Of a stretch of 64,000 bases of DNA, positions 6,261 to 62,579 are shown piece after piece (the stretch's first letter is position 1; every line of letters begins with the position of its first letter). Below the pieces are notes generated by a model that was not told the origin of the DNA, searched no databases, and saw only the letters and a list, made by a program, of their open reading frames with translations. Both the position numbers and the translations under genes were made by a program. The DNA is from Pseudoips prasinana (taxonomy: Eukaryota > Arthropoda > Insecta > Lepidoptera > Nolidae): assembly GCA_951640165.1 (NCBI GenBank), contig OX621244.1, positions 15,456,001 through 15,520,000 of the forward strand, read 5' to 3'.

Positions 6261-6737
6261 TGAGAGTTTTTGCAGAAGCAGCAGCAATGCCGGCACATAT
6301 CATTGTCCTAGTAGGGTGTGATACCGCTAAGGTATCGATTTTAATTTATTGACCACTTTTTCTGTCATAAACTTCTATCATTACAGTCAGCTCTAACTAA
6401 GTAATCAAATCTCGTGTGAAGTGAGCCGGCAAATGAGTAACCACATCTTAAAGGTACTTCAACTCAATCGCTTGGTATTGACTCGGTAACAAGGAGTCAT
6501 CATTCATAATTTTATAGACTGTGGTTACTATATCATTGGCGTGTCAACTCTGATATGATATGTTACTAGCTTTCTATTCGCGGCTTCACTTGTGTTATCC
6601 CTTGGGAATAGTGCCTTGAACTGGATGAATTTCGCGGTTATTTGCTAACAATCGTTAAACCATGACAGCATTTTATGCGGTCTGAACACTGATAACCACT
6701 CTAGAACGAAAGAAGAACAAATACTGATATATGATGT

Positions 6738-14463: not shown

Positions 14464-16701
14464 TCTATATAAATAAAAAGAGAAGTCCTGACTGACTGAC
14501 TGACTCATCAACGCCCAGCCCAAACCCTTGGCCCTAGAAAGCTGAAATTTTGCACAGATGTTTTCTTTATAATGTAGACAAGGAATAAGGAAGGATTTTT
14601 CGAAATTCAACCCCTAAGGGGGTAAAACGGGGGTGTCAAGTTAGTATGAAACTTTGCCATTTTTGAAGTTAGAGGCATGAAAGTTGCTATTTGGCCTTGC
14701 AGTTAAAAATAAAAAATATGTGTTTCAGGATTTTTGGAAAGTACACCCCCAAGGGCGAAAAATAGGGCATGTAAGTTTGTACGAAAAAAGTTTCCATTTT
14801 TAAGTTAAACGCATGAAAATTAGCATTTGGCTTTTTAGTTAAAAATAAAAAAAATATATTTCAGGATTTTAAAAAAATCCTCCCCTAAGGTCATAAAATA
14901 GGGGATGTAAGTTTGTATGAAAAATGCGATATTTTTGAAGTTAAACGCATGAAAATGAGTATTTGGCCTTTATGTTAAATATATATAGCATTTATTTCAG
15001 AATTTTTGGAAATTACATCCCTAAGGGCGGAAAATAGGGGATATAATTTTATACTGCCTGACTGCCATATCAACGCACAGTCTAAACGGCTGGAGTTATG
15101 TACTTGAATTTTGACAGTAGGTACCTTTTATGACGTAAGCATCCACCGAAGAAGGGTTTTTGAAAATACCACCCCTAAGGGAGTAAAATAAGGGATAAAA
15201 TATTTTATGATAGTCCTTAATTTTGATGTTAAAGGCATGTATATAGACTTGCAGTTAAAAATTATAATATATATTTCAGGATTTTTGAAAATTCACCCCC
15301 AAGGGCGTAAAATTGGGGATGTAATTTATACGAAAAAAGTGCCAACAAGTTTTAAGTTAAACGCATGAAAATTGGTATTTAGCATTACAGTTAAAAATTA
15401 AAAGAATACGTTTCCGGGATTCCGAGAATTCTACCACGAAGGGTGACAAATAGGGGATGTTTGTATGAAAATTGGTATTTCAGTTAAAAATAAAGCAATC
15501 AAGGGAATAATTTGTTGTTAAAAGGTAATCCATAACTGATTCAATAGGTCAACACCAAAAATTTACACCAACTTAAGAAATTCGTTTCTTATTGCTTAAA
15601 AAGTCGTGTTTGTTGTCGTCTAAGTAAAGATTTAGCGTTAAGATTTGTAACTTCTTTTTTTGGTATTTTTATAACATATTAAGAAAACGTCAATTTAATA
15701 AAATTGGGATAAAAAAGTAATTTACCCAAAATTCGAGTTAGCATAGTATAAATTGTTCGTGTCGAGATGATCGCACCCAAAAAAAATCACCTTAATTTTA
15801 CTGATCTACAAGTTCAAAATTTTGTAACTAGATGGTGTTTATATCGTTTCAGATCGCAGAACTCATTTGACATATCGGTTAAAATAAATAAATGCTTGAA
15901 GTAAAAGGTAGTCCAAAACTGAATCAAAAGATAATCCCCTAAATCTCACCCAAAATATATGCCCACATCTTAATTTTACCGCTTTACAAGTTTATATTTT
16001 TGTTAGTAGATGGTGTAATCATCGTTTTAGATCGCGCTAGGATTTCGTTCACAAAATGTGTTGTATATTAGACCTATCAATGCCGTGGTCGCAACCTAAG
16101 CTAATGGGTGTTACCTTTGTGATTAATGCATCGTTGATTATTATATTACTTTATTGGACTTACTGACTTTCATCATCATCATCATCATCATCATTACAGC
16201 TAAATAAGTCCACTGCTGGACAAGCCTCCCTCAAGAATCGTCTTGGGGGGATATGCCATAATCGCCACGCTTGGCAGGCGGGTTGGCGATCGCAGTAAGA
16301 TGGTCATAGTAATCAGAAGGAAGCTGCTGCCTATCCTCTGGTAGATATTCCCTAGGGCCGACTTCTACGCCCCCCACGGGATGAGATGGGGTGATGATAT
16401 TCTGATTCTGATATTTGTCGCCGTCACCACACAGCACTACTTACTGACTTTACTTAAGGACAATTATTGATATGTATTCTTTGATGTTTTTGGGTTTATG
16501 ATATCGGGTCTTTTTTTTAAATAACAGTAGTAAAGTAGTCTTTAGTTTATTTCTTAGCTAGGTTATTTATAGGTTAGGTTTTCTTAAATTTATATTGCTT
16601 ATTTCTTTTAAAAGTTATATTTTTTAGATTAAGCTAGAAGTAAGTAGTTACATTGGTAATCATTCAAAATTGTCGCGGATAAAGTCGCGGGCACCAGCTA
16701 G
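14464..16701 (+). mobile_element. Non-autonomous Helitron with internal tandem array, copy 1
   Basis: It starts TCTATATAAATAAAAAGAG after an A (14463) and ends CACCAGCTAG before a T (16702), the TC...CTAG layout and A/T insertion of Helitrons. A short GC-rich stem (GTCGCGG, aaa, GTCGCGG region) precedes the end. There is no Rep/helicase ORF. Seven units of about 125-155 bp, each with a 'ccctaaggg..aaaataggg' core, repeat at about 14608, 14744, 14880, 15016, 15170, 15295 and 15430. The inverted relative at 23628-25036 shares both ends and the array. A family C short element is inserted near its right end. Confidence 0.7.
16170..16440 (-). repeat. RTE-tailed short element (family C), copy 3, with (ATC)n
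   Basis: The left end carries (CAT)n at 16171-16193, which on the minus strand is the (GAT)n-type tail typical of RTE elements, followed by 'gtccactgctggac'. The body matches copies 1 and 2, and the head 'gccgtcaccacacagc' is at the right. It lies within the Helitron. Confidence 0.65.
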
Positions 16702-19139: not shown

Positions 19140-19257
19140 CACATATCAAGCTATACATTTCCTGTGTAAACTAATCTCGCGTTGTATAGGATATCCATAC
19201 AATGACAGGTCAGCTTATATTAGAAATGTATAGCTTAATATGTAGCCTTGTGTACAC
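19140..19257. mobile_element. Foldback MITE 1, copy A
   Basis: Long inverted arms ('atatcaagctatacatttcc' left, complementary sequence right) surround a short centre. The full copy at 27912-28036 has about 12 more terminal bases (gtacac.cggctac); here the left terminus is missing and the arm abuts the LINE A-run. Confidence 0.65.
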
Positions 19258-20040
19258 TCTTTTTTTTATTAATTAACTTATTATAATTTTTTATGGTTTT
19301 ATGGTCGACTTCTAAAATAGTTATTATTTTTTTTTCGATGTACGATGAACGATCGTACTAAGAATAGACTGTTTGACACACTCAACTGCTAAGGCAAAAA
19401 CATAAAAGACGTTTTAGGCACACAAAAGGGTATACTTATATATACTTATACCAAAGATTTCACAAGCATGACACCTACAATTTATAATATATAAGGGTCT
19501 GATACAGTTTTGGCATATAAGGTTCACTATTACATTAATGACTACCTGTTAAATGAATTCAAGTAATCGAATATAACATTTATATTTATTATGTGTAAAG
19601 TATTTGTTTTGCTCTTGACCTGTGTAAGTGTGTATTTTAATTTTTGTAAAATTGTTGTATTGAATTCATCATAATTATAATATGTTTAAGTTTATAATTG
19701 TGGCATTTTTATTTATGTAGTGAAATTACGTGTCATATTTGTTAAATCCAGATGCATATCTTAACAGACTGGACCTGGCGACACAAACATTTCCCTAACA
19801 CCTTCAAATAAATCTGTATTTTAATGTTACTATGTTCGCAATAAATAAATTGAACTGAAACCCTTCGTGTAGAAGTCCAACTTGCTCTTGGCCGGTTACT
19901 TATTAATAAGTGTTACAGTAGAGGAAGTTTGCCTTGCAGCGGTGTATAATTTGTTTAAATTGTTTGTTTACTACACCGTTAATTATTATTAAGAAGTGTG
20001 TTTAATTTCAGGAATTTATTTTGTTCTGTTCGTTTTAATT
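19258..20040. other. AT-rich DNA; possible LINE 3' end at 19480-19860
   Basis: No ORF is recognised. The stretch ending 'gcaataaataaattgaact' near 19840 resembles the 3' tail of a dispersed LINE, but there is no coding part to confirm it. Confidence 0.3.
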
Positions 20041-20223
20041 CAGCCTGCCTTTGTTTGACACAAAGGTAGGCTGGTTGTTTTACTAATTATTTTAATGCAT
20101 GAATTATCATGCATTAAAATAATTAGTAAAACAACCAGCCTACCTTTGTGTCAAACAAACTCTAGGGTGTATGAAAAATCACTAAAACATAATTGTTTTA
20201 GTGATTTTTCATACACCCTAGAG
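20041..20223. repeat. Three overlapping or abutting palindromes
   Basis: First, an imperfect hairpin with 14-bp arms (20041-20054/20060-20073, one mismatch). Second, overlapping it, a perfect palindrome with 53-bp arms (20050-20102/20107-20159) and a 4-base spacer ATTA. Third, starting at the next base, a perfect palindrome with 30-bp arms (20160-20189/20194-20223) and spacer TAAT. None matches the MITEs in this window. Repeated snap-back template switching, an unknown foldback element or an assembly artefact could explain it. Confidence 0.9.
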
Positions 20224-22100: not shown

Positions 22101-22167
22101 ACAAATGGAAGGCACTGTTTCTGTAATATACTCTTAGTTCAGATAATTGCATAACTTAAATAATCAT

Positions 22168-22309
22168 GTACAGACGCCAGCACATAAAGCTACCCCAATC
22201 TGTCAAATTTCCCCAATTAAAAGTGAACCTTATGCTTTTGTGATAAAGTTGAAAATCTATACAACAAATTTGACAGATTGGGGTAGCTGGATGTGCTGGC
22301 TTCTGTACA
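22168..22309. mobile_element. Foldback MITE 2, copy 1 (inverted)
   Basis: The ends GTACAGACGCCAGCACAT and its complement enclose arms reaching 'accccaatctgtcaaattt'. The centre is the reverse of that in copies 28321-28460 and 48857-48998. No ORF; probably mobilised by a Tc1-like or other TIR transposase (inference). Confidence 0.7.
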
Positions 22310-23627: not shown

Positions 23628-25036
23628 CTAGCTGGTGCCCGCGACTTTGTCCGCGACAATTTTGAATGATGACCAATGTAACTACTTATTACTTAAGCTT
23701 AATCTAAAAAATATAACTTTTAAAACAAATAAGCAATATAAATTGAATAAAACCTAACCTATAAATAACCTTGCTAAGAAATAAATAAAAGACTACTTTG
23801 CTACTGTTATTCACAAAAAGGACCCGATATCATCACGCAAAAATCAAAGAATACATATCAATTGTCCTTAAGTATAGTCAGTAAGTTAAATAAAGTAAAA
23901 TAAAATAACTACCCAAAAATCCTGAAATATATATTTTTAATTTTTAACTGAAATGCTAAGTACCAAGTTTCATGCGTTTAACTTCAAGTCGCAGTTTACA
24001 TAGTAACTTCCGTACCCTACTTTACGCCCTTAGGGGGGGGGGGATTCTCAAATATTCAGAAAATTATATATTTTAAATTTTTAACTGAAATGCCAAATAA
24101 CAATTTTCATGCGTTTAACTTAAAACGTTTCACATTTTTCATACAAACTTACATCCCCAGTTTTACACCCTTGGGGGTGGAATTTTCAAAAACCCTTCTT
24201 TAGATGCCTACGTCATAAAAGTTACCGTATGCCAAAATTTCAAGTCTTTAACTCCAGCCGTTTAGGCTGTGCGTTAATATGTCAGTCAGTATAAACTTAC
24301 ATCACCTATTTTTTGCCCTTCGGGGTGGAATTTTCAAAAATCCTGGAATACATATTTTTATTTTTAACTGAAAGGCCAAATACCAATTTTCATGGGTTTA
24401 ACTTCAAAAAAGTCGCATTTTTCATACAAACTTACATGCCCTATTTTACGCCCTAAGGGGTGGAATTCCCAAAAATCCTGAAATATATATTTTTAATTTT
24501 TAACTGAAATGCTTAATACTAATTTTCGTGCGTTTAACTTATAAATTGTCACATTTTTCATACAAACTTACACCCCCTATTTTACGCTCTTGGGGCTGGA
24601 ATTTCCAAAAATGCTGAAATATATATTTTTTATTTTTAACTAAAAGGCCAAATACCAATTTTCAAGCGTTTAACTTAAAAATTGTCACATTTTCCATACA
24701 AACTTACATCCCCTATTTTTCGCCCTTGGGGGTGGAATTTCCAAAAACCCTGAAATACTTGATTTTTATTTTTAACTGAAAGGCCAAATACCTATTATAA
24801 AAATTGGTAGTTTAAGGTATAAAACCTTAAACTTCAAAAACGGCAAAGTTTCATACTAACTTAGCGCCCCTGTTTTACCCCCTTAGGGGTTGAATTTAAA
24901 AAAATCCTTCCTTATTCCTTGTCTACATTATAAGGCAAACATTTGTGCAATATTTCAGCTTTCTAGGTCCAAGGGTTTGGGCTGGGCGTTGATGAGTCAG
25001 TCAGTCAGTCAGGACTTGTCTTTTTATTTATATAGA
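23628..25036 (-). mobile_element. Non-autonomous Helitron with internal tandem array, copy 2
   Basis: Minus-strand copy of the element at 14464-16701. It starts TCTATATAAATAAAAAGA at 25036 (after A) and ends GGGCACCAGCTAG at 23628 (before T). Before the end, CGCG(G)AC-aaa-GTCGCG can form the expected stem. Seven units share a 'ttttacgcccttgggggtgg' type core (about 24025, 24155, 24308, 24435, 24575, 24712 and 24870). It lacks an inserted short element, which explains most of its shorter length (1.4 versus 2.2 kb). No ORF. Confidence 0.7.
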
Positions 25037-27911: not shown

Positions 27912-28036
27912 GTACACACGGCTACATATCAAGCTATACATTTCCAGTATAAGCTGATCCCACGTTGTATAGCACTTCCATACAATGGTAGTCAGCTTAT
28001 ATTGGAAATGTATAGCTTGATATGTAGCCCAGTGTA
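27912..28036. mobile_element. Foldback MITE 1, copy B (most complete)
   Basis: Arms of about 45 bp: left 'gtacac.cggctacatatcaa' onward to 'tataagctga', right its near-perfect complement ending 'gtagcccagtgtac'. The centre (about 30 bp) holds 'ttgtatagcacttccataca'. No ORF. Copies at 19140 and 47338. Confidence 0.75.
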
Positions 28037-28320
28037 CCTCCTTCCTGTAGAACGCTTTTATTTATTTATTTTCTAAACGTTTGAACTAAAACGGAATTAT
28101 TAAAATCTTTTGATTGCAATTTTCTCACTTTTCTATAGAAATTGTCAATATTCATATCAACATCAGAAGCGTTAGGACGGTGTTCAAAGAACTCCTTCAC
28201 ATTCAAAGGCTCCGGTCAATTCAAAAGAATGTCGAATTTTCATTTGAAATTTATAAAATCCATTGCACCGTAATTCAGAAACGAAGAATTTATTGGATAT
28301 TGAAGGCTAGTCTTTGATTT

Positions 28321-28460
28321 GTACAGACGCCAGCACATCTGGCTACCCTAGTCTGTCAAATTTCTTTAATAGATTCTCAACTTTATCACAAAAGTTTAGA
28401 GTTCACTTTCAATTGGGAAATTTGACAGATTGGGGTAGCTTGATATGCTGGCGTCTGCAC
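28321..28460. mobile_element. Foldback MITE 2, copy 2
   Basis: Ends GTACAGACGCCAGCACAT and complementary 'atgctggcgtctgcac', with arms including 'gacagattggggtagct'. Same orientation as 48857-48998. Confidence 0.7.
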
Positions 28461-28464
28461 AAGG

Positions 28465-47283: not shown

Positions 47284-47630
47284 TTTAAAGCCTCATTGGT
47301 CTAGCGCCAGCGTGTCCAACCGCTTATAATGTGGTAAACACGGCTACATATCAAGCTATATATTTCCAGTAGAAGCTGATCTCGCGTTTTGTAGGACAAT
47401 TTTAATGGTATTTTTTGTTTTGCAAGTAATTAACAATCCAGAGTAGGGAAGTGGGTGGTGTTACAACCCCATGCCTCCCCGTCTTCGAAGAACAAGAGAA
47501 TAAGAGAATGGAGACTTCACCTGTGTTTGCGTACATAGGTGTTCATTATAATATTTTCCTCACAAATGACTATTCTCCTATGTAATGGTATCCATGGTCG
47601 ATGTTGGTTCACGAAGACATTATTTATTTA
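47284..47630 (+). repeat. SINE family B, plus strand, split by MITE 1
   Basis: The head 'cctcattggtctagcgccag' lies at 47284-47303 and later body sequence ('cacctgtgtttgcgtacata', 47519-47540) is separated from it by the MITE 1 arm at 47338-47412. It is diverged but in opposite orientation to the other B copies. Confidence 0.45.
47338..47412. mobile_element. Foldback MITE 1, copy C (one arm)
   Basis: 'acacggctacatatcaagct' and 'agaagctgatctcgcgtttt' match the left arm and centre of 27912-28036; the right arm is missing. Confidence 0.6.
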
Positions 47631-48807: not shown

Positions 48808-48856
48808 TTAATATGGAGTAACAACCACCGTTTTGTCGTGTTTTAACGTACATAAT

Positions 48857-48998
48857 GTACAGACGCCAGCACATCCAGCTACCCCAATCTGTCAAATTAC
48901 TTTTAAAGATTTTTATTTTTATCACAAAAGCACAAGGTTCACTTTCGATTGGGGAAATTTGACAGATTTAAGTAGCTTGATGTGCTGGCGTCTTTACC
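48857..48998. mobile_element. Foldback MITE 2, copy 3
   Basis: Starts GTACAGACGCCAGCACAT and ends in the complementary 'gatgtgctggcgtct'. Centre 'atttttatcacaaaagcaca' is as in copy 2. Confidence 0.7.
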
Positions 48999-57056: not shown

Positions 57057-57104
57057 ACGTTACATCTTCTTTTGCCGTGTGATGTCCATACGGATCGCAA
57101 CCTG

Positions 57105-57212
57105 CACAAAGGAGACCACGGCGTCCCATGTGGTGTAGCCCGCCAGCATCGCATAAACATTATGCGATGCTTGCGGGCTACACCACATGGGACGCCGTGG
57201 TCTCCTTTTGTG
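57105..57212. repeat. Near-perfect palindrome within the R1 fragment
   Basis: Arms 57105-57156 and 57160-57212 are complementary with one mismatch and one extra T, separated by ACA. Each arm is the same R1-clade coding segment, so one arm is an inverted duplicate of the other. Confidence 0.85.
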
Positions 57213-57559
57213 AGGCACTCATGCTCTAGAAGAAGGTCGCCGAGTGAGATCGGAAGCGATTCAATTTTGCTCTCAGACGAAAAAAGCGTCGGGGTGGCAG
57301 TGGCAGCTGGTAGCCCGACTCCTCTCGGGACTTTAGGGGCAGTATGAGAAGTGTCCTTTACTGCCGGCATATGCAATTAGCTCCGAAAAGAGAGTGAACT
57401 TGCTATAGTGCAGTCGCTGTGCCGAACTGGCAGAAGTTGCTAATTCGGAAGGGCAATCCAAAACCCTCCCGGAGTACGGGACCACACCATCTGGGTAGGC
57501 ATTTCCCCTGCCTTATCAACAAAAAATAATAAAAAGGAGGCTATTACTATTTCACAGGA

Positions 57560-62432: not shown

Positions 62433-62510
62433 TTTCATTATTAAGGTATGCCTTAATAATGAAAGCGCATTGTGCGCGACTGGTTGTATGCAACCAGTTG
62501 CGCACAATGC
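62433..62510. repeat. Two adjacent hairpins, both with TATG loops
   Basis: First hairpin: TTTCATTATTAAGG (62433-62446) and its exact complement (62451-62464). Second: 20-bp arms (62467-62486 and 62491-62510) with one G-T pair. Each has a 4-base TATG spacer and only 2 bases separate the pair. Confidence 0.8.
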
Positions 62511-62579
62511 TCTTTTGCTTGAATTTTGATTCTTGCATGCACATTCGTGAGAAAAAGAAAGAAAATTGTTTGAAGGGGG

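Follow-up and report, generated by a model that had tools for sequence, protein, structure and literature searches.

Abutting palindromes with a shared four-nucleotide loop in the genome of Pseudoips prasinana, and their possible origin at single broken sites

How do two perfect palindromes come to stand end to end at one site of a moth genome? Between positions 20041 and 20223 of a 64,000-nucleotide stretch of the Pseudoips prasinana genome (contig OX621244.1; hereafter the window), the initial annotation described a palindrome with 53-bp arms and spacer ATTA abutting another with 30-bp arms and spacer TAAT, and we confirm that both are perfect and that no base separates them. The parts of this chain are as follows.

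20041..20073, plus strand: older imperfect hairpin, 14-nt arms of which 13 nt are paired, loop TTGAC; it straddles the left edge of palindrome 1
20050..20102, plus strand: arm A of palindrome 1 (P1), presumed original from the straddling hairpin, which points to contiguity with the left flank
20103..20106, plus strand: loop 1 (N4), ATTA
20107..20159, plus strand: arm A', reverse complement of A at 53/53 positions, putative new copy
20160..20189, plus strand: arm B of palindrome 2 (P2), no gap to A', putative new copy
20190..20193, plus strand: loop 2, TAAT, the reverse complement of loop 1
20194..20223, plus strand: arm B', reverse complement of B at 30/30 positions, presumed original solely by analogy with the second twin described below

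Structure of the chain and the case against a transposon

Inverted copies of adjacent sequence thus make up both P1 (20050-20159; 53/53) and P2 (20160-20223; 30/30), and the junction between them falls exactly between 20159 and 20160. As single-stranded DNA, the chain folds into two adjacent hairpins at −93.9 kcal/mol, against a shuffle mean of −17.1 (z = −23.55). The hairpin on the left had been annotated as a 14-bp stem overlapping P1; the overlap holds, but the stem is not perfect, since its arms (20041-20054 and 20060-20073) carry one mismatch (G against A). Similarly, a 24-base piece said to be read forward, reverse and forward again has exact copies at 20050-20073 (minus strand) and 20136-20159 (plus strand), but the first forward copy, at 20041, has three mismatches because it runs into the palindrome. 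The pattern would be explained more simply by an old imperfect hairpin at the edge of P1, its right arm lying inside the left arm of P1. Because this hairpin crosses the left edge of P1, arm A looks original, which suggests that arm A already adjoined the left flank before P1 arose. Perfect arms had also been taken to imply a very recent origin, which does not follow: at a mutation rate of 2.9e-9 per site per generation, zero mismatches in 166 paired nucleotides give only an upper bound on age, of about 6 million generations.

The chain is a real structure, beyond chance. Excluding simple sequence, the window holds 14 exact-arm hairpins of at least 11 bp with spacers of 0-20 nt, where 0.6 were expected and no more than 3 appeared in any of 150 runs of an order-4 Markov model; those of the same class with a 4-nt spacer number 5, against 0.027 expected under that order-4 model. 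A looser scan gave 38 hairpins (8.9 expected; order-3 Markov, 8 runs). Among the 15 strong hairpins of the window there are two abutting pairs, and random placement yields two or more with P = 0.0002. The preference for 4 nt is notable because eukaryotic inverted repeats mostly lack a spacer, according to a survey of 118,019 genomes (PMC13155455).

Two palindromic MITEs inserted side by side might be considered, as palindromic MITE-like families are present in the window and P1 is of their size. However, no other copy of the chain, or of a twin found in another stretch (L012, below), was detected in the 1.126-Gb, 56-contig genome by a search that skips very common words and so gives a lower bound; no direct repeat of at least 6 bp frames the chain, even with its edges moved by up to 14 nt; and two MITEs would leave the shared loops described below unaccounted for. 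We regard this reading as scarcely credible. The test that the initial annotation had proposed for a transposon, namely further copies of the block with a target duplication, accordingly turned up neither across 1.126 Gb and at 6 bp or more; with no second copy detected, a transposon family is unlikely, and the chain is probably not a transposon. An assembly or library artefact is very improbable. Sequencing perfect palindromes is difficult, but mutations have since accumulated in two other twins of this design (the 25-nt arms of the second twin hold 2 mismatches, and another twin has 1 in 18), and twins are found on three different contigs of the 56-contig assembly, in which the window maps to contig C10. 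A nicked dumbbell arriving from elsewhere was set aside, no other copy of the arms of the chain having been found. The arms matched nothing in viral contigs, a phage BLAST gave no more than weak matches, none longer than 43 bases, Rfam returned nothing at gathering score, and a protein search with the open frame running through the chain yielded no candidate.

Other palindromic sequences occur in the window. A family of about 143 bp, MITE-like and with ends like TGTACAGACGCCAGCACAT, has three copies (22167-22309, 28319-28462 and 48856-48997). A second MITE-like palindromic family (ACATATCAAGCTATA...) lies at 27912-28037, 19141-19259 and 47333-47396, one copy being short, and a related 136-bp unit forms tandem arrays in opposite orientation at 14592-15054 and 23913-24796. 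One further palindrome is single:

57101..57215, plus strand: near-perfect palindrome from a piece of an R1-like retrotransposon, 49-nt arms with 1 mismatch, loop ACA

Its right arm continues into R1-like sequence and its left arm does not, the R1-like similarity ending there; because only one arm continues, this palindrome, too, consists of one original and one copied arm. In a protein search, the named relatives of the retrotransposon protein in the window came from Spodoptera, Arctia and Trichoplusia.

A second twin and the shared loop

The other abutting pair of the window is an older pair built to the same design.

62433..62464, plus strand: left palindrome of the second twin, arms 14/14, loop TATG at 62447-62450
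62462-62515, plus strand: right palindrome, 25-nt arms with 2 mismatches, spacer TATG
62465..62490, plus strand: middle of the twin, comprising a 2-nt gap GC (in the fold), arm B at 62467-62486 (new copy) and loop TATG at 62487-62490
62491..62515, plus strand: arm B' (original), which runs on into the right flank in relatives from a repeat family

Its halves are separated by 2 nt in the fold and overlap by 3 nt when delimited by scoring, and its mismatches would date it, at the same rate as above, to the order of 9 million generations. Within each twin of the window the loops consist of one 4-mer, allowing for inversion (ATTA/TAAT in the chain, TATG/TATG in the second twin), which a random pair of hairpins would show with a chance of about 0.014.

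This rule was formed post hoc on the two window twins and then tested on twenty 10-kb stretches, taken at one fixed coordinate on contigs C1-C20, and later on 5 more (250 kb in all). Three strong abutting pairs were found there.

L005, 6571-6652: twin with loops CAAT/CAAT; halves overlap by 2; 1 mismatch in 18
L012, 2105-2201: twin with loops TAAT/TAAT; 1-nt gap
L030, 443-528: strong abutting pair with differing loops of 11 and 2 nt, breaking the rule

In the first 20 stretches both strong twins (L005 and L012) obey the rule, and a weak pair in L018, with a 7-bp arm, has differing loops. Over the full 250 kb, two of the three strong twins outside the window share their loop, so that with the window included the count is 4 of 5 strong abutting pairs over 314 kb. 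When loops were permuted over 57 strong hairpins, sharing never exceeded 2 of 5 pairs in 200,000 trials, and only 1 of 147 non-abutting hairpin pairs from the same stretch shared a loop. A scan for equal loops of 2-10 nt with inner arms of at least 6, criteria that miss the second twin, found three abutting pairs, all with 4-nt loops, six null runs yielding none; when inner arms of 5 were allowed, three short pairs with 2-nt loops were added, where 0.83 were expected. Apart from the twins, no hairpin scoring at least 11 had a same-loop partner beside it. The chain probably belongs to a class of twins that share a 4-nt loop; among the members found here, it alone has loops that are reverse complements rather than identical.

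The other stretches also contain single perfect hairpins, whose arms reach 48 bp and whose loops measure 1-12 nt; these may be ordinary template switches or MITEs; examples are L010 2347-2425 (38 bp, TGG), L011 8330-8430 (48 bp, AGGGG) and L031 3957-4051 (45 bp, TAGCC). The L005 twin (6571-6662 region) ends 4-9 bp before a young repeat copy, from which point 34 other places match at 91-100% identity; no target duplication of more than 6 bp was found at this repeat copy.

One broken site or a replication accident

The recurrence of one 4-mer in the two loops of a twin suggests an origin at one site. Our preferred reading, which we consider somewhat more likely than not, is that the chain is the scar of a single broken site, in which an ancestor A.N4.B' broke at N4 and each side was inverted onto the break. 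The ancestor would have read left flank, A, N4, B', right flank, where N4 stands for one 4-bp sequence, either ATTA or TAAT. A break whose ends are staggered by 4 nt would fall on N4, and each end would close into a hairpin with its 4-nt overhang as the loop. The hairpins would then reopen away from the tip, 53 and 30 bp inside, whereupon unrolling of the folded strand would lengthen each side by an inverted stretch (A' at the left end, B at the right end), and joining of the lengthened ends would give A.N4.A' followed directly by B.N4.B'. The net outcome would be a doubled 4-mer whose two copies enclose the left and the right flank in reverse complement. The exact abutment is accommodated because a join of opened hairpins yields it by itself. 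Because the loops of the chain are reverse complements, either unequal handling of the ends or a flip of one loop must be added, and a later flip would be the simplest addition. Inversion of the spacer within inverted repeats has been reported (PMC8604942 and PMC8794818).

The initial annotation instead preferred serial template switching within one replication event to a transposon, and of this a rearrangement other than transposition stands, no other copy of the block and no framing repeat of at least 6 bp having been found. A single excursion with four switch points would be insufficient, as two abutting inverted pieces need at least two. In the serial version, a nascent strand copies A and 4 nt, folds back and copies A', returns, copies B and 4 nt, folds again and stops at the first hairpin, starting from an ancestor A.ATTA.B.TAAT that lacks B'. 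A halt at the first stem would account for the exact abutment, and single short-loop hairpins are common in this genome. Published work describes palindromic insertions made by fold-back in rad27 mutant yeast, where a second fold-back may follow (PMC5677150), an enrichment of 4-nt loops in rRNA hairpins with template-switch-like compensatory changes (PMC8794818) and template-switch pieces of up to 128 nt in apes (PMC7954356). Such a serial snap-back was the explanation we favoured at first; it fell to second place after the shared loops and the continuity of B' with its flank in the second twin had come to light. It leaves the equal loops in 4 of 5 twins to chance, since the ancestor needed is A.N4.B.N4, and, if run left to right, it gets the original arm of the second twin wrong, predicting B where relatives show B' continuous with the right flank. 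We therefore consider serial switching less well supported and rather unlikely, although it is the strongest of the rivals.

The evidence from the second twin comes from its position inside a dispersed repeat. Positions 62491-62544 match L034 (C28:15360895-15360948) at 45 of 54 positions, and this match of B' and the right flank runs on across the palindrome's edge, so that B' is the original arm and B the copied one. The 54-bp unit (L034 1501-1554) belongs to a dispersed repeat family with at least 41 other matches, a lower bound given that 40 of 116 candidates were scored; at C20:4611754-4612101, three copies of the unit follow one another at intervals of about 145 bp. In 25 of the 41 L034 matches, similarity starts at base 1 or 2 of the unit, and L034 departs from the repeat family at the exact base of the break in the second twin.

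For an empty-site test we used five fetched copies of the 41 (L036-L040), which are diverged and mutually related. To the left of the unit, L036, L037, L039 and L040 are related to one another (pairwise anchored scores 32-45), L038 less so (10-25.5), and L034 is unrelated (5.5-15.5). In the four alignments printed (L036, L037, L039 and L040), the window sequence freed of the insert aligns across the join; TATG stands opposite TTATA, or opposite TGATT in L040, and L036 and L040 show a 9-nt gap further left. The score of the joined left side was reached in 5, 249, 443, 56 and 61 of 2000 cases for L036-L040 in a 40-nt anchored test, and in 1701 of 2000 for L034. In a 66-nt test, the insert-free sequence outscored the sequence as it stands in all five copies, though for L037 only by 88.5 to 88.0, and random left parts reached the joined score in 9, 349, 286, 8 and 82 of 2000, so that, copy by copy, two results fall short of significance (349/2000 and 286/2000) and a third is weak (82/2000). 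Taken jointly, the five copies score 427 without the insert and 371.5 with it, and 427 was attained with 11 of 4000 left parts drawn at random from the genome and with 7 of 2000 shuffles (P about 0.003); with L034 added as a sixth copy, the figure is 23 of 2000. L034 itself has a different left side (joined score 1.0) and slightly favours the sequence as it stands, so that five of six copies favour an uninterrupted ancestor. The serial fold-back ancestor without B' scored lowest of the three sequences tested in all five copies, and never above the piece consisting of B' and right flank alone. These comparisons lend moderate support to an uninterrupted A.N4.B' as the ancestor of the second twin. 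For the chain, of which the 1.126-Gb search detected no second copy, no empty site came to light.

The same ancestor would be expected from a replication accident at one site, in which two converging forks, or both nascent strands of a single fork, reverse direction within one and the same 4 nt and become sealed there, giving a dog-bone as in ODIRA but of tens of bp, with no initial double-strand break. Published inverted triplications of the ODIRA type are large in scale. Hairpin-capped extrachromosomal intermediates formed by template switching have been proposed in yeast (PMC10766183), and the geometry of one site is common to this reading and the break model; the published events, however, as that account presents them, use short inverted repeats and give inverted triplications. 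We consider such an accident improbable.

Extended to the chain, the one-site history would include the staggered break, hairpin closure, opening away from the tip and the enzyme responsible. A 4-nt stagger fits topoisomerase II, or a transposase or integrase that staggers by 4 bp, and opening a hairpin 14-53 nt from its tip is unusual. Some hAT-type transposases, Kat1 and Hermes among them, are known to leave breaks capped by hairpins (described in PMC4763223).

Relation to known systems and implications

The twins share with short-range template-switch mutations, as passages in PMC7954356, PMC8794818 and PMC5677150 describe them, locally templated perfect inverted repeats of tens of bp and a preference for 4-nt loops, but there one event gives one inverted piece, whereas here two palindromes abut and have one 4-nt loop in common. 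They also differ in that the right outer arm of the second twin is shown to be original and the left outer arm is supported as original.

Known P nucleotide additions amount to a few nucleotides, and hAT duplications are 8 bp long, a mismatch with 4. In V(D)J recombination, in hAT transposition and with Kat1 of Kluyveromyces lactis, ends are closed as hairpins, and opening away from the tip would leave palindromic additions (PMC4763223, in part). The geometry of the twins fits palindromic additions on both sides of one break of the hAT or RAG type, the break itself being hypothetical; unlike those P additions, however, the additions here span 14-53 nt around a 4-nt loop, and no transposon end is known at the chain. 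Topoisomerase II damage has a 4-nt 5' stagger and leaves 4-bp duplications, and the twins resemble it in a 4-nt stagger at a non-specific site; we know of no inverted flank copies from such damage. With ODIRA and hairpin-capped extrachromosomal DNA (PMC10766183, in part) the twins have in common two closed loops and inverted copies, but ODIRA is much larger, needs an origin and leaves a triplication. Among the titles, abstract openings and passages of the literature that we searched, we recognised no description of abutting palindromes with a shared loop.

A broader proposal, which we put forward tentatively and hold to be possible at odds well short of even, is that the twins belong to an undescribed class of germline scar, left where an enzyme cuts with a 4-nt stagger and seals the ends as hairpins, putatively through misjoining by topoisomerase II or a domesticated transposase; this would have happened thousands of times in this moth genome, a figure extrapolated from 2 twins in 250 kb of stretches picked regardless of twins. 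Were this so, the loop would be a record of the break site and the arms a record of the points at which the hairpins reopened. If the shared-loop rule holds, each twin would be a base-resolution fossil of one break, its 4-mer giving the stagger and the site and its arm lengths the opening points; the closure of germline breaks as hairpins outside V(D)J recombination, which is rarely seen, would become testable from genome sequence alone; and long perfect hairpins, the raw material for hairpin RNAs, would have a route of origin other than template switching.
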